In this document: piece by piece, positions 4,153 through 26,350 of the stretch | Layout: each line of letters starts with the position of its first letter | Numbering within the stretch: position 1 is the first letter of the stretch | Origin: an uncultured Lachnospiraceae bacterium | GTDB lineage: Bacteria > Bacillota > Clostridia > Lachnospirales > Lachnospiraceae | Assembly (NCBI GenBank): GCA_947063675.1 | Contig: CAMSTM010000019.1 | Location: forward strand, 1 to 34,044 | DNA length: 34,044 nucleotides | Direction of reading: 5' to 3' | Notes under the pieces: model-generated | What the model was told of the DNA's origin: nothing | The model's input: the letters and a program-made list of their open reading frames with translations, nothing else | Database searches by the model: none | Program-made: the position numbers and the translations under genes

Positions 4153-5541
4153 TCAGATTACTGTATCCCACTTCCGGTAGCTCTTAGCAGCCTCCTCCTG
4201 AAACTGCGCAATCTGAAACAATCCCTTCGTGACTTTATCCAGTTCTATTGCAGAAAGCTTGACCCCATGATACAGTCCGGCATGGCCTTTTACATAAACC
4301 GGGATTGCATCCGCCGTCTTTCGCACTTCACGGACAAGCGTATCTATCCGCAGAGTCAGACTTCTGGTCTGCTCTGCCTGTCTGAAAAGCTGCCCGTAAT
4401 CCACCTGCAGATGAAAGGCGGCCGGAAGCTCCCCTTTAAAATATTCCTTATCCAACAGGGAACATAAAAATTTTCTTCCCTCTTCCTTCTTAAAAAGACT
4501 TCCGGCAATCAGAGGAATTCCCTGAATCGTAAAATCTTTCATATCCTCTAACGTCAGCCTTTCGCCGTTTATCCCCTTTTTTTGTCCCCTTGAAGCTTCC
4601 ATTAACTGCATAATAACGGCCGCACATCCGTCTCTCTCCCCCGGCGTCAGCTTCATCATACCGGAGGAGAGGGCGGCTGCATATTCTCCAAGCTCTCCCC
4701 GGTTTGGCACATCGCAGTTTTTTCTTCCATGAAAAGTTGTGATATAATTTCCTGTTTCCTCATCAGCGGTCAGCGATGCAAACATATACTTAATGTCGTG
4801 ATATCCTGCAAAATTCGTTTTTTCCACAGGAGTCTTTATATATCTGATATGTCCTGCTAAAATAACAGAGCTTCCCAGAACGCTTACATAATCGTTTTCC
4901 CCGTGGATACCGTATATCTTTTCCCTCCTCTTATCATATTTTTCATTCCCGTATCTGTCTTTCCATTTATTTATGGCGGCATCTGAAAATCCCTGTCCGT
5001 CCACGGAATAGCAGGCGTCCACAAGATTCACGTATCTGGTTTCCATTGTAACAAACTGCGCTTTGTTTCCTCCTTTTGAATGTCCCGTTACGATAACCTG
5101 ATTTTCCTTTCCGATATCCATCTGCTCCACCACCTCCTCAAAATAAGAAAGGGCGCGGTTCTGCTGAATGGTTGCGGCGTCTGTCATCCCGATTCCGTTG
5201 TCCGGCCACTCCCCGTCCCCGGTTCCCCGGTAGACGACATAATAGCTGTTTCCGTCGCTGCTTTGAAATGTACATGCCGCGGTTCCTGAATCATATCCCA
5301 TATTGGCGCTCTGGCAGCAAATTTTAAGGCTTCCTATCTCTTCGTTTTTTACAGCCTCCCGCAGCACTGTATATTCTCCAAAATGCGCCCCGCCTCCCCC
5401 GTAATCGGGGACTGTCTCCAGATTATCTATAATGTCCCTTAATGCAAGGCCGTCTTCGGCTTCCCTGTAATCCAGATACATGAAGGTATCCAGCACCATA
5501 CTGATTTCCGCTTCCGAAATTTTCTCACCGATTTCAAACAT
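4153..5541 (-). CDS. DUF2974 (Mbeg1-like) alpha/beta-hydrolase, candidate T7SS-associated lipase/esterase
   Basis: A 462-residue protein with an alpha/beta-hydrolase core. YRGTGDG (104-110) fits the oxyanion strand, and VTGHSKGGNKAQ carries the nucleophile elbow GxSxG with Ser155. A later segment, HGENDYVSVLGS followed by FAGYHDIKYMF, could supply the Asp and His. The C-terminal part (about 300-462) is helical. There is no signal peptide or transmembrane segment. It is the last gene of the type VII secretion operon, 90 bases after a WXG100 gene, which makes it a candidate effector or accessory enzyme; that role is inferred from position only. ATG 5541 has an AAGGGAG site just upstream. A second DUF2974 protein with the same GHSKGGN elbow is at 25250-26350. 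Confidence 0.82.
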   Translation of the reverse strand: MFEIGEKISEAEISMVLDTFMYLDYREAEDGLALRDIIDNLETVPDYGGGGAHFGEYTVLREAVKNEEIGSLKICCQSANMGYDSGTAACTFQSSDGNSYYVVYRGTGDGEWPDNGIGMTDAATIQQNRALSYFEEVVEQMDIGKENQVIVTGHSKGGNKAQFVTMETRYVNLVDACYSVDGQGFSDAAINKWKDRYGNEKYDKRREKIYGIHGENDYVSVLGSSVILAGHIRYIKTPVEKTNFAGYHDIKYMFASLTADEETGNYITTFHGRKNCDVPNRGELGEYAAALSSGMMKLTPGERDGCAAVIMQLMEASRGQKKGINGERLTLEDMKDFTIQGIPLIAGSLFKKEEGRKFLCSLLDKEYFKGELPAAFHLQVDYGQLFRQAEQTRSLTLRIDTLVREVRKTADAIPVYVKGHAGLYHGVKLSAIELDKVTKGLFQIAQFQEEAAKSYRKWDTVI

Positions 5542-5566
5542 CTCCCTTCAAGTATCCTCCCGGAAA

Positions 5567-5587
5567 GGTGGCGCGTACCGCGCCGCC
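5567..5587 (-). other. GC-rich hairpin between WXG100 gene and DUF2974 gene
   Basis: A nine-pair stem (GGTGGCGCG / CGCGCCGCC on the plus strand, one G-T pair) with a three-base loop. On the transcript it is followed by only TTTCC, so it may act as a partial terminator or as an mRNA 3' end stabiliser that lets the WXG transcript exceed the downstream gene. Confidence 0.5.
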
Positions 5588-5631
5588 TGCCGCTTTACCG
5601 TCCGTTAATCCACAGCCGCCCTGCAATGATG

Positions 5632-5946
5632 CTATACTACCACGTTACTGTTAAGGCTTCCGCCCTGCTGAGCGTTTCCTGCCTCCGCCTTCTGGTACAG
5701 CGCCGCCATTTCCTGCAAATCCTTCACGTGCTCCTGTACCATGCGGTACAGCTTGTCCATATCCGTCTGCAGCGACTGAAATTTATTCCCATAGGCGCTT
5801 GCCGCTTCTCCCTGCCAGATTCCTTTCATTCCCTGCACCAGCGACATCATTTCACTGGTGAGACTTTTCATCTGATTTCCCGTAGTTGCAAATTCCCCTG
5901 AGGTCTGAATCAGCTTTTCCGGTGTTACCTTTAAAATTCCTTCCAT
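5632..5946 (-). CDS. WXG100 family type VII secretion substrate (EsxA-like)
   Basis: A 104-residue, almost wholly alpha-helical protein of the ESAT-6/WXG100 family. The helix-turn-helix signature WQG is at 44-46 (KGIWQGEAASAYGNKF), near the middle as in the family. A YxxxE export motif, YQKAE at 84-88, follows near the end of helix 2, with a flexible Gly/Asn/Ser tail. The start ATG has a strong AGGAGGAAGG site. It lies 15 bases after another WXG100 gene, and the two could form the usual heterodimer. It is presumably recognised by the EssC ATPase encoded upstream. Of the five small proteins here it is the closest to canonical EsxA. Confidence 0.9.
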   Translation of the reverse strand: MEGILKVTPEKLIQTSGEFATTGNQMKSLTSEMMSLVQGMKGIWQGEAASAYGNKFQSLQTDMDKLYRMVQEHVKDLQEMAALYQKAEAGNAQQGGSLNSNVVV

Positions 5947-5961
5947 AAATATACCTTCCTC

Positions 5962-6261
5962 CTAGTAATTTCTTGCCGCCGCAATTTCCCTGTTTCTCGC
6001 CTCTGCCTGCTCATACCTTGCCGCAATCTCCAAAAGCGCCTGCACATACTGTGCAATCAACTGATGGAAAACATCCATCTGCTGCTTATCCCTGGTAAAT
6101 GCCTGGTGAAAAGCATCTCTTGCCTCACCCTCCCACATGCCGCACAGGGCGCTCTCCTGCTCGCCTAAAACGGTTGTCTTTGATTTGAACTGGCCGTTTA
6201 ATTCTGTTATTCTTCCCGCTCTGTTCCGTAGTTCTGATGATGTTACACTGAAAAAAGCCAT
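5962..6261 (-). CDS. WXG100 family type VII secretion substrate (EsxB-like partner)
   Basis: A 99-residue helical protein with WEG at 43-45 (CGMWEGEARDAFHQAF) and the C-terminal export motif YEQAE at 83-87. Both are hallmarks of secreted WXG100 proteins. The start ATG follows AGGAGG by five bases. It sits between a divergent helical gene and the second canonical WXG100 gene, all in the same direction with gaps of 15-21 bases, so co-translation and heterodimer formation are likely. No cleavable signal peptide is present, as expected for this pathway. Confidence 0.9.
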   Translation of the reverse strand: MAFFSVTSSELRNRAGRITELNGQFKSKTTVLGEQESALCGMWEGEARDAFHQAFTRDKQQMDVFHQLIAQYVQALLEIAARYEQAEARNREIAAARNY

Positions 6262-6282
6262 ATGTCCTCCTGTTTAAAGTTC

Positions 6283-6594
6283 CTACAAATATACTCTCAC
6301 TGTTGCCAACTGGTTACTCAGCATTTCTGCCTGATACATTTTCTTTGCCCGCTCCTCCATTTCCTCCGCTATCTTTAAGATTCTTTCCGCCTCCGAAATC
6401 AGAAGCATGCCCAGCTTCACCTCCTTTCCTGCCAGCACATCGCTGCATTCGCTTATCCAGTATCGTTTTCCTTCGCCGGCAAGGCGCATCAAATCATCCT
6501 CGCCCGCCGACTTTAAGGCTTTGGCAAGCTCTGCAAGCTGCTCCGAAAGCTGCTTCACCTCCGCAAAATGCATTTCAATCGTCCGCAATGACAC
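6283..6594 (-). CDS. Small helical T7SS-locus protein, divergent WXG100-like
   Basis: About 103 residues, nearly all helical, with the size and two-helix layout of WXG100 proteins. The central motif is degenerate: Trp46 is present in KRYWISECSD, but there is no W-x-G turn. MYQAEM near 86-91 resembles a worn export motif. I chose GTG 6594 rather than the longer frame from 6633 because AAAGGAG lies eight bases before the GTG, while the longer frame starts with an unsupported TTG. The start overlaps the end of the preceding gene by 20 bases, suggesting coupling. It could be a chaperone-like partner or non-secreted subunit instead of a substrate. Confidence 0.72.
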   Translation of the reverse strand: MSLRTIEMHFAEVKQLSEQLAELAKALKSAGEDDLMRLAGEGKRYWISECSDVLAGKEVKLGMLLISEAERILKIAEEMEERAKKMYQAEMLSNQLATVRVYL

Positions 6595-6982
6595 CTGTAT
6601 TTCTCCTTTCCGCCTCCTCGTAAACCGTGGCAATCAAATCTGCCTTCTCAAGATGCCTGCAAAGCAGAGCAAATACCTTTTCTCCCTCGCTCCCCACAGC
6701 CATAAAATCCGTTTTCAGGCTGCCGGAAGCCTGTCCGAAAAAGCAGTCCTCCAACTTTGCCGCAATATCCTCTGCCGACCCAAACGCGCACTTTGCCTGC
6801 CGGGCGGCATCCAGCCACCCCTTTTGTCTTTCCTTTAAAAGCTGCGTTGTTACCCTGATATTTTCCGTCAGAATTTCATCCCCTTTCCTCATTTGTCTGC
6901 GCCGGACGTTTCCTCCAAAATCCTTCCGCTGTCCGCGCCGGATGTTTTCCTCCACAGTCCTTCCGCCGTCCGCGCCGGACAT
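6575..6982 (-). CDS. Small helical T7SS-locus protein with repeated 5' end, WXG100-like
   Basis: A 135-residue protein. Residues 31-135 are helical and WXG100-sized; the turn reads CFFGQASGSLKTDF, with Phe replacing Trp, and YEEAE near 122-126 matches the YxxxE export motif. The first 30 residues are low-complexity, basic and glycine-rich. They are encoded by a 36-37 base tandem repeat that carries copies of the ribosome binding site and start region. ATG 6982 has AGGAAGG immediately upstream and is the best-supported start. An internal ATG at 6892, which would begin at the conserved-looking part, has its nearest GGAGG 19 bases away. It lies nine bases after the previous small gene and overlaps the next. 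Confidence 0.7.
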   Translation of the reverse strand: MSGADGGRTVEENIRRGQRKDFGGNVRRRQMRKGDEILTENIRVTTQLLKERQKGWLDAARQAKCAFGSAEDIAAKLEDCFFGQASGSLKTDFMAVGSEGEKVFALLCRHLEKADLIATVYEEAERRNTGVIADD

Positions 6983-6990
6983 TTCCTTCC
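6895..6990 (-). repeat. Tandem repeat (36-37 base unit, about 2.6 copies) duplicating a ribosome-binding/start region
   Basis: Copies begin at 6895 (36 bases), 6931 (37 bases) and 6968 (partial). Each copy contains GTCYGCGCCGGA followed by a CCTCC or CCTTCC block; read on the minus strand this is a purine-rich ribosome-binding block followed by TCCGGCGC. Only the copy at 6968-6990 has ATG before TCCGGC; the other two have ACA and ACG there. Confidence 0.8.
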
Positions 6991-6991
6991 T

Positions 6992-7291
6992 TTACAGCCC
7001 TTCAACCGCCTGCTTCATAATTTTCTCCATTTTTGTCAGCGCCTTCGCCCGCTCTTTTGCCTTTCCTGTAAGAGCCTCCATTTGAGCTACACAATCCGCC
7101 GCCTGCCCCAATACCCTTTGCAACTCCAGTCCCCACTCTTTCCCTGCGCTGCTTTCCCATATTTCGGAAAGTCTTCTCTCCTCCTCTGAAAGAAGCGCAA
7201 GCCTGTCCTTTGCCCTGGTGATTTCCTCTCCCATAGCTTCCATCCACCTGTTAAATTCCTGCGCCTTCAAATGTATCTTCCCGTCTTCCAT
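6992..7291 (-). CDS. Small helical T7SS-locus protein, WXG100-like
   Basis: A 99-residue helical protein. Trp45 occurs in SEIWESSAGKEW, at the expected central position, with Ser replacing the Gly of W-x-G. No YxxxD/E motif is visible at the C-terminus, so it may not carry the export signal itself and could ride as a partner of another small protein. ATG 7291 is preceded by GAGG at seven bases. It begins nine bases after the EsaB/YukD-like gene, placing it third in the T7SS operon. Confidence 0.75.
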   Translation of the reverse strand: MEDGKIHLKAQEFNRWMEAMGEEITRAKDRLALLSEEERRLSEIWESSAGKEWGLELQRVLGQAADCVAQMEALTGKAKERAKALTKMEKIMKQAVEGL

Positions 7292-7300
7292 TTCCGAACC

Positions 7301-7546
7301 TCAAATCAGTATCAGCCTGTCTCCGTCTCTTATTCCCTGCTGTTTCAGAGTTTCATGCCCTGTTAAAATCCCCTCCTGTCCGGGAACATAAAGATACATC
7401 TTCCCCGCATCTTCACAGTCAAGCCCTTCCTGCCCGGCAATTAATTCCTGAATCTCCTCAAGAACAGCATCCGCACAGGCTTCTTCGTCCAGTTCAAAAT
7501 CAAATATTTTATCCAGTACCGGCACCTGTATATCCACTAAAATCAT
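7301..7546 (-). CDS. EsaB/YukD-like ubiquitin-fold protein of type VII secretion
   Basis: An 81-residue acidic protein with a beta-grasp pattern: strands at 1-8 and 13-18, a helix around 24-37, then TLKQQGIRDGDRLILI at the C-terminus, which is the typical ending of YukD/EsaB. Its ATG overlaps the essC stop codon (ATGA), indicating translational coupling to the ATPase. In Staphylococcus aureus and Bacillus, EsaB/YukD is a small cytosolic component of the T7SSb needed for normal secretion. The family, size and position all agree. Confidence 0.85.
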   Translation of the reverse strand: MILVDIQVPVLDKIFDFELDEEACADAVLEEIQELIAGQEGLDCEDAGKMYLYVPGQEGILTGHETLKQQGIRDGDRLILI

Positions 7547-10500
7547 TCTGCTTCTCCTTTCCCGTATAGCGGCAGCAAAAGCCTTCTGGTTTCCCTGCCG
7601 GCAGCTTCCTTAAAATATCCGATACCCGGCCTCTCCGGCTGGTTCAGTTTTGCATAGCCCAAATCGTCAAAGGACAGCACCCTCTGCTCCCCGGCATTTC
7701 CTCCTAAATGAATCCCCTGACGCCACGCGGTAAATTCTCTGAAAAATCCGCATACCGCCGCTTCATAATCCCTCTTTGGATGGTAAATTCCGGCCAAAAA
7801 TTCAATCCCGTTATCACCTCCGGCAGCCTTTTCCCAAAACGCCTCTCTTTCCTCCCGCATGGCGCCGGACTCATAAAGATATTTACAAAAACGCCCCATA
7901 TCACTGATAAAAACGCTGATTTTCTTCTTGCTTTCTCCTTTCTCCGCCTTATTTCCGCTTCCCTTTTCTCCAGGCTCCCCGCCTTTCTTTTCCCCTTCTG
8001 TTTTGGCGTTTTGGATTGCCAGCCGCCATTTTTCCACTGATTCCCCGTTTTCAAGATACGTAATTTCTTTCTCCTTCCCGAAATCTTGCAGTTTCCCTTC
8101 AAAGTCCACTATCACTACCTGGCTTTTCAAAAGTAGCATTCCCTTCGCCAGACAGCTTAAAAGATTGGTCTTTCCGCATCTCTCATTTCCCGATATCAGA
8201 AAGCAATGACTTTTCCGCGGTGTAATCGCACAGATTTCTCCCGTTGTCAGGCAGTATCCTAAGGGTAGTTTCCCGCTTTTCCAGTCAAACGCCGCAGCAA
8301 GCCGGTTAAAGGCAGGTTCCGCCGGTATCTTTGGGAATTTTTCCGGTAACGCAGTTCCCTCCTTATCCATAACGATTCTCATTTTTCTTCCGGCCTCCTC
8401 AATCATCTCCGCACAGCCGAATCCTGCCTGCTTTTCATCAAACAGCGCGGTCTGAAATTCCAGAATCCTTCCTTCCTCCCGGCAAAGTCCCCTGCCCTTT
8501 TGATTTTCCTTTGGCAGCACAGGGATATGATATTGTCTTAACACATCCCCGTACTGAAACCTGTCGCTCATCTCCAGCGAAAAAGCCGTCTTTATTTTTT
8601 CATACAGCTTTCCGCCGATATCGCTGATATCTGAGGCTGATATTATCAGCGTAAATCCCAGGGAAAGTCCCTCACAAGCCAGCCGCATTATGACCTCCTC
8701 CTCTTTTTCCTCAAGCAGAGTTTTTAACGCTCCATAATTGTCAATCACAAGAAAAATACGCGGCAGCCTTTCTTTTCCGGACAGGTTATACTGTTCAAAG
8801 CTGATTCCCGACAGTAATTTTTTGCGCCTGCCTACCCTTTCCTTCAGATGGTGGAAAAACACCTCCCGCCCCGCTTTATCTGTGAGCGCTCCCATGCAAT
8901 GAGGCATAGACGCAAAGCTTCCCGTGCCTTCCCGGCGCATGTCAACCACCGCAAACAGCGCCTCCTCTGCTGTAAAATCTGTTCCAATCTGCCACAAAAC
9001 CGTCTCAAGAAAAACGGTCTTGCCGGTGGCCGGACCTCCGCAGACTGCCAGATGCCCCTGAGCGGAGGGGTAATACACAAGGGGAAAGCTGCATTGATTT
9101 TCAGGGTCGTCGCAAAGCCCGATAATCATTCCCTTTTCCCTCTGTCCGGCCAAATTCTCCCCCTGATTTTCCTTCGCCGGCAAACCCTTTCCTGCCAGCT
9201 CCTTTAACAATATTTTTTCGGGCAGCTCCGGGAGCCAGAGCGGGGATGCCGGCAAGTATCTGCTGTTATCCGCCGTCTTCCGTATGTATTCTATCAGCGC
9301 GTCCATCTGGCTTTTAAAAACCCCGTTTTCTTTTTCTCTGTTTTCTGTCCTCTTTCCTGTATCTGAAAGAAGAACCGCTTTTGCTTTTTTCTCCTCCCCT
9401 GCCCTGTATGGCTCCCCGCAATATCCTGCCTGGAAAAGCTCAAAGTACTCGTGGTTTCCAATCTGCAGATAACATTGTCCCGGAGCGGTCAGGGCCGCCG
9501 CCTCGTCGCTGTGAAGCATGTCAAGGCTGTCCTGTCTGTCCTGGACCCGAAGGCACAGACGGAATCTGGCATTGCTCCATATTTTATCATCCACTGTCCC
9601 CGCCGGCTTCTGGGTCGCCAGAATCAAATGCACTCCAAGGCTTCTTCCCACCTGTGCCAGTGAAATGATTTCCCGCATAAATTCCGGCTCCTCCTTTTTC
9701 AGCTCCGCAAACTCGTCCACCACCAGCAGCAAATGAGGCATTGCGGATTTCGCCTCTCCTTTCCGGTAAAGCTTTGTATACGCATCGATATGGTTCACGT
9801 GAAAATTACTTAAAAGCCGTTGTCTTCGCCTGTTCTCGCTTGCAATAGCCGACATGGCCCGTCTGATTTGTTTCCCCGATAAATTAGATATGACGCCCGC
9901 ACAGTGGGGCAGACTTTTTAAAAGATTTCCTGTACCTCCGCCCTTGTAATCAATCATGAAAAAACTGACATCCTCCGGGCTGAAATTAATCGCCACAGAC
10001 AGCAGGTAAGTCTGTAAAAGCTCGCTTTTGCCGGAGCCGGTGGTTCCTGCTACAAGGCCGTGGGGACCATGGAACTTCTCATGGACATCAAGGCTGACCA
10101 GACGGCCTCCCGCCCCGAAGCCTATGGGAACCTTAAGGCGTTCTCCTGTTTCCGATACTTTCCATCTTCCGCCACTTTCCAGTTCCTCCACCCGACTGCA
10201 TCCATAGAGCTGCAAAAAATCCGCCTTTTCCGGGAGCCGGCTGTTTTCCTGCGTCTCCCGCGCTCCAAAGCCTGCGATGCTTCGGATATACCTTAGCGCC
10301 GGTTCTGTATGGCAGCTTTCCAGGGACAGCGTCTTTTTCTCCGCATTTCCGTTTCCCGGATTTAAAATTTCTCCTTTTCCGTTTTCCCCTGTCAAAAAGA
10401 GCCGGCAGCATTTAGGAAGCGCTTCCCTTTCTTTTCCCACAAATACCGCGCTTACGGGATAAATCCCCTCAGGTTCTGTAAGGCAGCGGTACAGCGGCTC

Positions 10501-12219
10501 CCCCTGTATCAATTCTTCATTTAATATGAAAGCAATGTACCACGGAATCCTGACGCCTTCCTTCCGCTCTCTGTCATCCAACATAAGCTCTCTTGTCAGG
10601 ACAGGAAGAATCTCGCCGGCTTCCAGCTCATTTCCTGCAAGAAATCTCGTTCTTCTGTCCGACGACCAGCTATGGGACAGCCATCTGAAGCAATCGGCAA
10701 TTTCCCTTTCAGGACCTCTTTCCTTATGATAAAAGCAGACCGTCTTTACCTCTGTATGGCAATGGCTTACTGCAATCTGCATCATAAGCATCATCACTAT
10801 CCCCAAGGCCTCTTCAAAAGCCTGATTTCCCCATACGCCAATCTGCCTGTCCTCATAAAGATTCACACCCACAGGCGCATTTTCCAGAACGGCAAACCTC
10901 TCCGCCAGCCGCTCCGCCTCCCCGGTAAGCCTTCTTTGCACAATACTTTTTGATTGCCCGGAAAGCTTTATTTTCATATGAAAAGGAATGTCTCCGCTTC
11001 CCAACCGGAAGAATAAAAAATCCTTCTGTCTGTAATAACGGTTCCATAAAACGGCAGGCTCTTTGCCGCCTTCCTCCAAAAAGAATTTCATGGACGGATA
11101 TTTTTCCTCAAGAATCCTGCAGTTTTCATCCTGATAAAAGGAAATCTCCTCCTCCATTCCCTCCAGATATTCTCTGTACTGCCTCTCCTTTTCCTTCCTC
11201 TCCCTCCTGCCTGAGTACTTTTCATATCCATGTCCCAGAAATCCCCAGAAAAGGGCAAGCAGAGCGCTGCACCCGCTCATAAGCGCAGACAGATAATAAA
11301 ACCCGCCCCCTGTTCCCTCCATATATCCATTCATCATCCAGGCCATAAAAAGCATAGGCAGAACCATTGTAACTGTAGGCCCCATGCTCAGGAAAAGAGG
11401 GTGACTGCGTTCTGCTGAGGGGATTTCCGGCAGTAAAATCTCCACTTCGCCGGTATGAAGGCTCTCCTCCTGTCCATAAGCCTTCTTTGTTATCACTTTG
11501 TCTTTGTGGATTTTCTTAAAGGTATCCGGTTTCACAGGAGTATACCTGCCCGCCACCCGGCAGATTCCGCAAAACGCGGTGCAAATTACGGTTTCCTTTA
11601 ATATAAGAAGATGAAGTCCGTAAATATCCACTCTGTCGCCGCTTTGCAAAAGCCCTTTGCCTGTAAACGCTTTCTCATTCAGATAAACCCCCTCGTTCCC
11701 GGCATTATCAATAACCATTCCCTGCTCCGTGGCATGTATTTCCAAGTGCACCTCGCTAACCAGAGAAAAACATTCAAAAAAGATTTGATTCTTAAAGGAG
11801 CTCCCAGCCTTAAAGCTTTCTTCTCTTTGCATCGCCAGTCTTTCACATGGCCTAAAATGCAGCTTTCCCGACAATAATAACAGTAGTTTTTCATTTTTTT
11901 CGGTATAGAAATAGAAAGGCGCCCTACTGTTTAACTCCCTACCGTTGATGTGCAAACTTCCGCCGGAAAACAGCAGCTCCATTGCCGTATCCTCCAAAAA
12001 GCCCGTATCAACAGCCATCAGTACAAGCCTGTATCTCCCTTCCGTAATGTCGGGTAACGGCTTCCTTATACAGGCTCTTTTGCTGAAAATCAGCAAAATC
12101 CTGCTATCTCTCTCATTATTTTCCTTATTAACGATAACAATGTCACCTCCGATTTCATCTTTTGCTTTGGAAATCATCTGATAACGGACATCAATGCATT
12201 TCAAAGATGTTCCATCCAA
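7543..12219 (-). CDS. essC: EssC-type FHA/FtsK-SpoIIIE ATPase, type VII secretion motor
   Basis: Up to 1558 residues. The N-terminal cytosolic part includes an FHA-like domain (about 140-210, ending LLQSGDRVDIYGLHLLIL). Two transmembrane helices follow (about 280-298 and 306-330), then a charged stalk and three P-loop domains. Domain 1 has Walker A GTTGSGKS (725-732) and an intact Walker B VVDEF (833-837). Domain 2 has GGPATGKT (1061-1068) but Walker B is VIDNY. Domain 3 has GNERCGKT (1344-1351) with ISDMG as a weak Walker B and a Lys/Glu/Gly-rich insertion at 1406-1433. This is the EssC/YukBA layout: a hexameric membrane motor that exports WXG100 proteins. It is the first gene of the operon. 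The start is uncertain: the frame opens with TTG 12219, the first ATG is at 12177, and neither has a good ribosome binding site; the region resembling other EssC N-termini begins near residue 40. Confidence 0.92.
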   Translation of the reverse strand: MDGTSLKCIDVRYQMISKAKDEIGGDIVIVNKENNERDSRILLIFSKRACIRKPLPDITEGRYRLVLMAVDTGFLEDTAMELLFSGGSLHINGRELNSRAPFYFYTEKNEKLLLLLSGKLHFRPCERLAMQREESFKAGSSFKNQIFFECFSLVSEVHLEIHATEQGMVIDNAGNEGVYLNEKAFTGKGLLQSGDRVDIYGLHLLILKETVICTAFCGICRVAGRYTPVKPDTFKKIHKDKVITKKAYGQEESLHTGEVEILLPEIPSAERSHPLFLSMGPTVTMVLPMLFMAWMMNGYMEGTGGGFYYLSALMSGCSALLALFWGFLGHGYEKYSGRRERKEKERQYREYLEGMEEEISFYQDENCRILEEKYPSMKFFLEEGGKEPAVLWNRYYRQKDFLFFRLGSGDIPFHMKIKLSGQSKSIVQRRLTGEAERLAERFAVLENAPVGVNLYEDRQIGVWGNQAFEEALGIVMMLMMQIAVSHCHTEVKTVCFYHKERGPEREIADCFRWLSHSWSSDRRTRFLAGNELEAGEILPVLTRELMLDDRERKEGVRIPWYIAFILNEELIQGEPLYRCLTEPEGIYPVSAVFVGKEREALPKCCRLFLTGENGKGEILNPGNGNAEKKTLSLESCHTEPALRYIRSIAGFGARETQENSRLPEKADFLQLYGCSRVEELESGGRWKVSETGERLKVPIGFGAGGRLVSLDVHEKFHGPHGLVAGTTGSGKSELLQTYLLSVAINFSPEDVSFFMIDYKGGGTGNLLKSLPHCAGVISNLSGKQIRRAMSAIASENRRRQRLLSNFHVNHIDAYTKLYRKGEAKSAMPHLLLVVDEFAELKKEEPEFMREIISLAQVGRSLGVHLILATQKPAGTVDDKIWSNARFRLCLRVQDRQDSLDMLHSDEAAALTAPGQCYLQIGNHEYFELFQAGYCGEPYRAGEEKKAKAVLLSDTGKRTENREKENGVFKSQMDALIEYIRKTADNSRYLPASPLWLPELPEKILLKELAGKGLPAKENQGENLAGQREKGMIIGLCDDPENQCSFPLVYYPSAQGHLAVCGGPATGKTVFLETVLWQIGTDFTAEEALFAVVDMRREGTGSFASMPHCMGALTDKAGREVFFHHLKERVGRRKKLLSGISFEQYNLSGKERLPRIFLVIDNYGALKTLLEEKEEEVIMRLACEGLSLGFTLIISASDISDIGGKLYEKIKTAFSLEMSDRFQYGDVLRQYHIPVLPKENQKGRGLCREEGRILEFQTALFDEKQAGFGCAEMIEEAGRKMRIVMDKEGTALPEKFPKIPAEPAFNRLAAAFDWKSGKLPLGYCLTTGEICAITPRKSHCFLISGNERCGKTNLLSCLAKGMLLLKSQVVIVDFEGKLQDFGKEKEITYLENGESVEKWRLAIQNAKTEGEKKGGEPGEKGSGNKAEKGESKKKISVFISDMGRFCKYLYESGAMREEREAFWEKAAGGDNGIEFLAGIYHPKRDYEAAVCGFFREFTAWRQGIHLGGNAGEQRVLSFDDLGYAKLNQPERPGIGYFKEAAGRETRRLLLPLYGKGEAE

Positions 12220-25249: not shown

Positions 25250-26350
25250 TCAACTTTGAAAAAGTCCGCTTTTCATATTTTCCAGCATCATTTCAAACAG
25301 GGAACGAATCATTTTCTGCAGCGTTTTCCGTGTACTGTCATCCACTTCCCTTGCCGCGGTCGCCACGTTTTGAAGGCTCTTTTTCAAATCGGCGCCGAAT
25401 TCAAACACATCGGAAGCCTTTGAGGCGGAAATCACATCATAAAGCGTATCTATAAACAGATGTATCTCCTCCTCGGAAAGAGACAGTATCCACTCGTTTA
25501 AGGCGGCGTCACGCTTAATTTTGGCGCTGGTCATATTTTTCGCCCTGACTATGGTTCCGTCCTTGATTTTCCATGTGTAGGTATTATGCTGAAAGGTTCC
25601 GATTCCCCGGCTCTCCACAATTTCATATTTTCCGTGATTCTCCAGTATCATTCCCACCAGAGAGGAACGGGGAATAAACTTAATTACTCTGTCCTCAATG
25701 GCAGAATAATTTCCCTGCTCCCGGATTTCCGGCCGAAATCCCGGGCCGTCGTTATTAAATACCTTAATCAGCCTCTTTCTTGTCTCTTCCCGGCAGTTCA
25801 TTGCAGCATAAACCGCAAGATTTCCCCCTTTAGAATGGCCTCCCACATAGAAATCCCCTTCGAAGGCCTCCGCCGCCTTTTCCAGATATTCTACTGCCAG
25901 GTACTGGCTGGGAAGGGGTTTTGAAAATGCCAGGTTCAAATCTTCCTTCCACCCCACAAGAGTCGCGTCGGTTCCCCGATAAGCGACATAAATGCCCCCG
26001 TCCTCCAGAAAATAGGTCATTGCCGAAAACTGTGTCTCCTCTTCCTCATTGATAACATTGACATAAGCATTCATTTTCAGTCTGCCGAACCTCACGGACT
26101 CGGCAAGCGCCGCAAACAGCTCCTTATTATTCTGCCGATACCAGTAATCGTCAAGAATCACGTCCCTTTCAGGATGGGAATAAATACTTTGTATACTCAC
26201 CGGCTCTTTTTTCTCCTCCCGCCCCGGAACGAATTTTTCATAATTTAAGTATACAAGCTGGCATAAAATCAGACTGTCCACCTCATTAAACGGTCTTTCT
26301 GACAAAGGATACCTTCCCCAGTCTTTGATATAAGAAATAATATTTTCCAT
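25250..26350 (-). CDS. DUF2974 (Mbeg1-like) alpha/beta-hydrolase
   Basis: A 366-residue protein with the alpha/beta-hydrolase signs YRGTDATLVGWKED (124-137, oxyanion region) and GGHSKGGNLAVYAAM (170-184) with nucleophile Ser173. SSLVGMILENH followed later by FQHNTYTW is the usual Mbeg1-like C-terminal pattern, and the His there is a candidate for the triad. There is no signal peptide. The likely activity is lipase/esterase-like hydrolysis of an unknown substrate. ATG 26350 is preceded by AAAGGAG. It follows the DUF3810 gene by 39 bases in the same direction and is likely co-transcribed. It shares the GHSKGGN elbow with the T7SS-locus protein at 4153-5541 but is shorter and not near T7SS genes. 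Confidence 0.85.
   Translation of the reverse strand: MENIISYIKDWGRYPLSERPFNEVDSLILCQLVYLNYEKFVPGREEKKEPVSIQSIYSHPERDVILDDYWYRQNNKELFAALAESVRFGRLKMNAYVNVINEEEETQFSAMTYFLEDGGIYVAYRGTDATLVGWKEDLNLAFSKPLPSQYLAVEYLEKAAEAFEGDFYVGGHSKGGNLAVYAAMNCREETRKRLIKVFNNDGPGFRPEIREQGNYSAIEDRVIKFIPRSSLVGMILENHGKYEIVESRGIGTFQHNTYTWKIKDGTIVRAKNMTSAKIKRDAALNEWILSLSEEEIHLFIDTLYDVISASKASDVFEFGADLKKSLQNVATAAREVDDSTRKTLQKMIRSLFEMMLENMKSGLFQS

Follow-up and report, generated by a model that had tools for sequence, protein, structure and literature searches.

A conserved type VII secretion cassette of Lachnospiraceae in which EssC is the only encoded machine subunit with membrane segments

The division of type VII secretion system (T7SS) subunits into channel-forming and accessory ones is unsettled. 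This question bears on a gene cassette in the window analyzed here, a 34,044-nucleotide stretch of contig CAMSTM010000019.1 from an uncultured Lachnospiraceae bacterium. Read along the minus strand from 12219 to 4153, the cassette encodes EssC, YukD, five small WXG100-like proteins, and a hydrolase (Table 1). A model that saw only the DNA and its open reading frames (the sequence-only reading) had described an operon of an EssC-type ATPase, a YukD-like protein, five small proteins, and a DUF2974-type hydrolase; its coordinates and strand were right, and profile searches match its assignments. Intergenic gaps are no longer than 90 bases, or the genes overlap, and the cassette is therefore consistent with a single operon. 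Scans for promoter-like sites (16 versus 9.1 expected) and terminator-like sites (10 versus 8.8 expected) are weak evidence. The best joint explanation, which we hold to be probable though far from certain, is that the locus encodes a compact T7SS, has EssC as the only machine subunit with membrane segments among its products, exports its own lipase, and was derived by loss.

The first question is whether the absent subunits are encoded elsewhere. The sequence-only reading noted that EsaA, EssA, and EssB are not encoded here, and profile searches of the locus and of the whole genome, a 3.74-Mb assembly in 272 contigs that is 95.04% complete, agree. In that genome, there were no matches to EssB/YukC (PF10140) or EssA (PF10661), for both of which the Bacillus subtilis control scored above the cut-off, and none to EsaA (TIGR03929), for which controls were positive in four genomes including B. 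subtilis, one of them above the cut-off. A single EssC exceeded the cut-off; the other match was a weak one of FtsK type (110.8 bits). The searches for EssA and EsaA covered the window genome alone; EssB was also sought in 39 genomes carrying the cassette, and it was not found in 35 of them. The other four (G364, G369, G370, and G381) each have an additional canonical EssC scoring above 1400 bits, which adjoins EssB in G364, G370, and G381 and lies on a different contig from it in G369. Cassette EssC was the sole match at E ≤ 1e-60 in 30 of the 39 genomes, none of which encodes EssB. Contig loss is unlikely to explain the missing EssB, because 35 of 39 cassette genomes lack it and the rest have a separate canonical EssC. 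The suggestion that the subunits lie elsewhere in the genome thus failed for EssB, EssA, and EsaA within the searched assembly of the window genome and for EssB in 35 of the 39 cassette genomes. In a survey of 348 genomes of the family, EssC was above the cut-off in 76 and EssB in 16, 15 of which were among those 76. Consequently, 61 of the 76 EssC-bearing genomes, some of which are incomplete, are without EssB above the cut-off (five, G002, G082, G147, G207, and G300, show a weak match below it), which makes the textbook T7SSb a minority in this bacterial family.

The second question is what the cassette itself places in the membrane. We scanned hydropathy in 19-residue windows with a membrane-like threshold of 1.6. 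All cassette proteins other than EssC stayed at or below 1.16, as expected from the earlier claim that no other gene has transmembrane segments. EssC, which passes the TIGR03928 cut-off of 778.4 bits, has five windows above 1.6. Two of them, 275-293 and 310-328, agree with the usual topology of EssC and are likely transmembrane segments, judging from the sequence; the other three fall within FHA or ATPase regions. A degenerate FHA region (about residues 120-220), scoring 19.0 bits in a profile search, slightly below the cut-off of 20.7, is followed by FtsK/SpoIIIE ATPase domains, in which the Walker A motif is strongly conserved in D1, largely in D2, and poorly in D3. The TTG start at 12219 is uncertain: the EssC of locus L004 aligns from residue 1, and the remaining closer relatives align mostly from residues 7 to 42. 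Among the machine components encoded in the cassette, EssC is therefore the sole one with membrane segments; for the machine as a whole, we infer this.

Table 1. Positions and assignments of the cassette genes and of other features mentioned in the text. Positions refer to the window unless a locus or genome is named.
Feature	Position	Strand	Description
essC	12219-7543	minus	1558-residue EssC/TsxC-type ATPase; TIGR03928, 858.6 bits
yukD	7546-7301	minus	81-residue EsaB/YukD-like ubiquitin-fold protein (TsxB); PF08817, 39.4 bits (cut-off 27)
s1	7291-6992	minus	small WXG100-like protein without conserved C-terminal YxxxD/E; profile-profile comparison
s2	6982-6575	minus	small WXG100-like protein, C-terminal YxxxE; profile-profile comparison
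s3	6633-6283	minus	small, distantly WXG100-like protein; profile-profile comparison
WXG1	6261-5962	minus	WXG100 protein (TsxA-like), C-terminal YxxxE; PF06013 above cut-off
WXG2	5946-5632	minus	WXG100 protein (TsxA-like), C-terminal YxxxE; PF06013 above cut-off
WXG2-lipase gap (90 bases)	5542-5631	minus	site of candidate immunity gene (IMM) in 20 of 37 cassettes
lipase	5541-4153	minus	reverse-architecture lipase; Mbeg1-like PF11187, 48.9 bits (cut-off 21.1)
Second Mbeg1-like hydrolase	25250-26350	minus	PF11187, 263 bits
S8 subtilase	13-1827	minus	CspB-type prodomain
DUF6382-FHA protein	L178:3897-5231		window-genome copy, 444 residues
Stand-alone FHA genes	L044:1882-2277, L048:9624-10010, L050:9561-9962		just upstream of shortened essC
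IMM of locus L015	G360:C1:940789-941433		two internal stop codons

To ask how far the arrangement is conserved, we scanned genome contigs for EssC, which gave 64 loci, and added the EssC regions of the family survey except the one in the window (94 regions) and 17 regions of a phylum survey. Once genes had been called and clustered, many loci, most of them from Lachnospiraceae, proved to share the order essC-yukD-s1-s2-s3-WXG1-WXG2-(IMM)-lipase while differing in their flanks. A tree of 167 EssC proteins placed the 42 loci of cassette type (40 loci and two duplicates, L126 and L153) in one clade with support of 1.0; the 13 cassette members used in a 68-taxon IQ-TREE analysis grouped with an ultrafast bootstrap (UFBoot) of 100. 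Thirty-nine clade loci, two of them refetched duplicates, carry YukD, WXG100, and lipase genes, together with s1 (38 loci), s3 (37), s2 (33), and IMM (20). The gene order is kept even where clade EssCs fall to 32% identity (best segment, L048). The clade is also narrow: only L126 and L153 of the 94 survey regions belong to it, and 3 of the 348 genomes, including the window's. Other EssCs formed separate groups, each with a UFBoot of 100; these were seven EssB-linked proteins, six T7SSf-like proteins typed by gene content (TadZ-like ATPase and DUF6382-FHA), and five references from outside the family, one of which (L168) is T7SSg-like. The cassette is a conserved, selected, and separate arrangement. 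The proposal of a distinct type VII variant thus stands in so far as the group is separate, conserved, and monophyletic; missing subunits alone do not make a new type, since T7SSc to T7SSj already lack them (PMC11217815).

Where did such a cassette come from? A nearby clade of 40 leaves encodes a kinase (25), an FHA protein (27), a TsxI-like protein (12), and a PPM phosphatase (11); the representative proteins are a kinase with TPR, a PP2C, and a large Ig-domain protein. UFBoot values for joining the cassette clade to the kinase loci, typed by content, are 81 with 34 taxa, 95 with 35, and 100 with 36. The weakly supported sister, L152, has a lipase, EssC, two WXG100 genes, a kinase, a TsxI-like protein, and YukD. 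In a profile search of neighbors, clade cassettes proved to be devoid of kinase, PPM, TsxI, and FHA-component genes, and single neighbor matches in L048, L015, L019, L018, and L010 (a kinase, a TadZ-like gene, and three LytTR genes) all lie outside the cassette. Because the nearby clade and L152 carry these genes, the simplest reading is that the cassette probably arose by loss of a kinase, an FHA partner, an envelope protein, and perhaps a phosphatase. The FHA phosphothreonine motif GR..S..H..NG is absent from all 35 cassette EssCs tested and from 12 of 12 EssB-linked ones; it is present in 24 of 47 EssCs linked to a kinase and in 13 of the 39 remaining ones. Its absence from the cassette EssCs agrees with such a loss. 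The same tree allows that the cassette is an unreported member of a published subtype, T7SSe or T7SSj, with its partner genes relocated, and no separate variant. Its EssC lies with kinase, PPM, and TsxI loci that resemble those subtypes by content, and s3 also occurs in kinase-bearing T7SS loci, where WXG100 genes likewise flank it in pairs. Given that clade cassettes have none of these partner genes, we regard this as rather improbable.

Loss on this scale could also mean decay, leaving a nonfunctional remnant of a larger T7SS. The kinase, FHA partner, TsxI, and phosphatase of the neighboring clade are missing, as is IMM from 17 of 37 cassettes, and one genome copy of IMM is interrupted. Against this stand the ratios of nonsynonymous to synonymous substitution (dN/dS) in the sole pair tested, with L004: EssC has 0.18 and the lipase 0.086, though the ratio rises to 0.39 in s2 and to 0.53 in WXG2 (on a dS of 0.015). 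With gene order maintained across such divergent EssCs and with the D1 Walker A motif and the putative catalytic triad of the lipase conserved, a decayed remnant seems highly improbable.

Other T7SS arrangements appeared among the loci. L060, L063, and L064 are related loci with a short EssC (1228-1320 residues); between their WXG100 genes and the lipase lies an FHA protein with one transmembrane segment, which groups with vWA-FHA proteins. Another T7SS clade (L056-L059, L061, L062, L086, L088, L112, L123, and L124) is unmatched to a published subtype; near its YukD, WXG100, PPM, and kinase genes, it has a further set of three conserved small genes, coding for about 210, 105, and 170 residues.

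What might the cassette export? WXG1 and WXG2 pass PF06013 with 43.5 and 55.2 bits (cut-off 27.3). Although s1, s2, and s3 have no Pfam match above the cut-off, hhalign gave 96.8% for s1 with WXG1, 97.9% for s2 with WXG2, and 92.9% for s3 with WXG1, with controls at or below 1.3%. In locus L029, all five small proteins match Pfam WXG100 at E < 1e-3 (three above the cut-off, one at it, and one below). By profile comparison, then, all five small proteins are WXG100-like; the true start of s2 probably lies inside its annotated open reading frame. A YxxxD/E motif occurs in the last 40 residues of s2 (32 of 32), WXG1 (33 of 34), and WXG2 (34 of 34). Because the window genome has no further WXG100 match at E ≤ 0.001, the cassette appears self-contained.

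The hydrolase belongs to PF11187 (Mbeg1-like), once named DUF2974. Residues 1 to about 365 resemble a class 3 lipase of the alpha/beta hydrolase fold with a putative triad of S155, D217, and H248, and the C terminus is a predicted helical hairpin (382-461) with YRKWD near its end. This order of domains, which is that of TslA, was found in the predicted model and by fold comparison; we can thus assign the hydrolase, with fair confidence, as a TslA-like reverse lipase. Between WXG2 and the lipase, 20 of 37 cassettes (the window among the 37) encode a membrane-anchored protein of about 235 residues, which looks like an immunity protein and is a candidate for that role. Its model resembles DUF5037 (4gl6) with a TM-score of 0.40, and no relative was found in the window or the searched genome. 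In L015, the IMM gene has two internal stop codons while the lipase is open, possibly a natural loss of immunity. IMM relatives adjoin lipases in L168, L169, L093, and L150, which are T7SSg-like (with a Tad match nearby) and T7SSf-like loci, and the lipase-IMM pair therefore seems to move between T7SS types.

Together, these features suggest how the system could work. EssC would be an ATP-driven channel in the cytoplasmic membrane, with YukD docking on it. The WXG1/WXG2 pair would act as TsxA-type activator and cosubstrate through its YxxxE tail, and s1 to s3 might partner the C-terminal hairpin of the lipase. The lipase, exported as dedicated cargo, would hydrolyze membrane lipids outside the cell, probably those of competing bacteria. 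An ancestral T7SS would have had a kinase and an FHA partner as well as a large Ig-domain envelope protein and perhaps a phosphatase; with these lost, EssC would be left as the only cassette-encoded machine subunit with membrane segments. It is plausible that EssC suffices as sole membrane subunit. A stricter version, in which an EssC hexamer and YukD alone form a translocon dedicated to one lipase, the kinase, FHA partner, and wall-spanning protein having been discarded, is tentative, and we lean somewhat against it. If it were true, this would be a minimal T7SS, and EssB, EsaA, EssA, and TsxI would be accessory rather than parts of the channel. An ATPase-only membrane system with one evident cargo would also be the simplest T7SS to reconstitute. 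Strain-named relatives, whose culture status we take from their names, include Parablautia muri, Parablautia intestinalis, and Lachnospiraceae bacterium 10-1.

Several observations weigh against this account. Profile-profile comparison gave no mutual match between s2 and s3 (0.27%), and the YxxxD/E tail is rare in the last 40 residues of s1 (1 of 37) and s3 (2 of 36). Support for the branches adjoining the clade is weak (L152 as sister, 0.933/UFBoot 79; 34-taxon group with kinase loci, UFBoot 81). An antibacterial role is harder to reconcile with IMM missing from 17 cassettes and from the window genome, and where present, IMM is a second membrane-anchored protein, though immunity-like. The FHA region is kept with no encoded EssB or kinase partner; in L044, L048, and L050, where EssC is shortened and without FHA, a small gene just upstream matches the FHA2 region (hhalign 98.8%, controls below 0.3%). 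Finally, the search in trans covered named families only, and a partner of another family is possible.

One candidate partner is a DUF6382-FHA protein that 36 of the 39 genomes, the window genome included, encode outside the cassette, usually in a single copy. The window-genome copy has an FHA-like C-terminal end preceded by two hydrophobic stretches, with its highest hydropathy windows at 275-280. The genes flanking it look Tad-like from their sequences, and 9 of 10 fetched DUF6382-FHA regions sit among Tad pilus genes. DUF6382 is a domain of TsxJ, and the TsfJ protein of T7SSf has a plan of two hydrophobic stretches with FHA (PMC11217815); the window-genome protein shares this plan, even though its own setting is a Tad pilus locus. 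The machine might then not be reduced at all, its translocon being completed by one or more membrane partners of an unrecognized family encoded elsewhere, such as this one. Retention of the FHA region, as a stand-alone gene in three loci, implies that some binding partner probably exists. Yet the Tad setting, the absence of the gene from 3 of 39 genomes (a count of EssC-bearing genomes only), the missing phosphothreonine motif, and the 30 genomes with cassette EssC alone and no EssB all speak for a reduced machine, and we consider a complete one unlikely, if still worth taking seriously. The DUF6382-FHA gene is best regarded, by its neighborhood, as a Tad gene, with a link to the T7SS possible. 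Because the window-genome protein lies in a Tad-like locus, a Tad origin is also possible for TsfJ and TsfV of T7SSf.

Two other window genes deserve mention. The second Mbeg1-like hydrolase belongs to a cluster found in 7 of 65 loci, and the S8 subtilase, downstream of the lipase, to one found in 21 of 65; there is no evidence that the subtilase belongs to the T7SS.

How does the cassette compare with known systems? Eight subtypes without EsaA, EssA, and EssB, T7SSc to T7SSj, were defined by Garrett, Higginson, and Palmer in 2024 (PMC11217815); this absence is already known and is insufficient alone for a new type. Like T7SSb (Ess/Yuk of Staphylococcus and Bacillus), the cassette has an EssC that exceeds the TIGR03928 cut-off, along with EsaB/YukD and WXG100 proteins, but EssB, EssA, and EsaA were not found in the genome, and its EssC falls outside the EssB-bearing group (UFBoot 100). 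With T7SSe and T7SSj, it shares an EssC with an N-terminal FHA region, a YukD-like protein, WXG100 proteins, and the absence of EsaA, EssA, and EssB; in the tree, its EssC lies near loci of similar gene content. It differs from them in that the locus is without the kinase TsxD, the PPM phosphatase TsxF, the Ig-domain protein TsxI, and the DUF6382-FHA protein TsxJ, and that the phosphothreonine motif was not found in its EssC FHA region; this likeness is one of content, with no named sequence compared. The window locus has neither the TadZ-like ATPase nor the DUF6382-FHA protein of T7SSf, and the six T7SSf-like EssCs form a separate clade (UFBoot 100). T7SSg, the simplest published subtype, consists of two WXG100 proteins, a YukD-like protein, and an ATPase, with reverse lipases at one locus (PMC11217815). 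The cassette is alike in its two WXG100 proteins, YukD, and ATPase. In contrast, TsgC has no FHA domains and is accompanied by the beta-propeller TsgL and Tad genes, whereas cassette EssC has an FHA-like region, the eight cassette proteins gave no beta-propeller match, and the window gave no Tad match; T7SSg-like L168, with a TadA match nearby, falls in another clade. The composition of the cassette thus matches no compared published subtype exactly. Set beside the TslA-TlaA1-TlaA2-TilA module (PMC10730906), the cassette differs in that its small genes precede the lipase, its lipase bears YxxxD/E near the C terminus, the window genome has no immunity gene, and the IMM model resembles DUF5037. 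The two share an N-terminal lipase domain, a C-terminal helical domain, adjacent small helical proteins, and, in 20 of 37 cassettes, a membrane-anchored candidate immunity protein.

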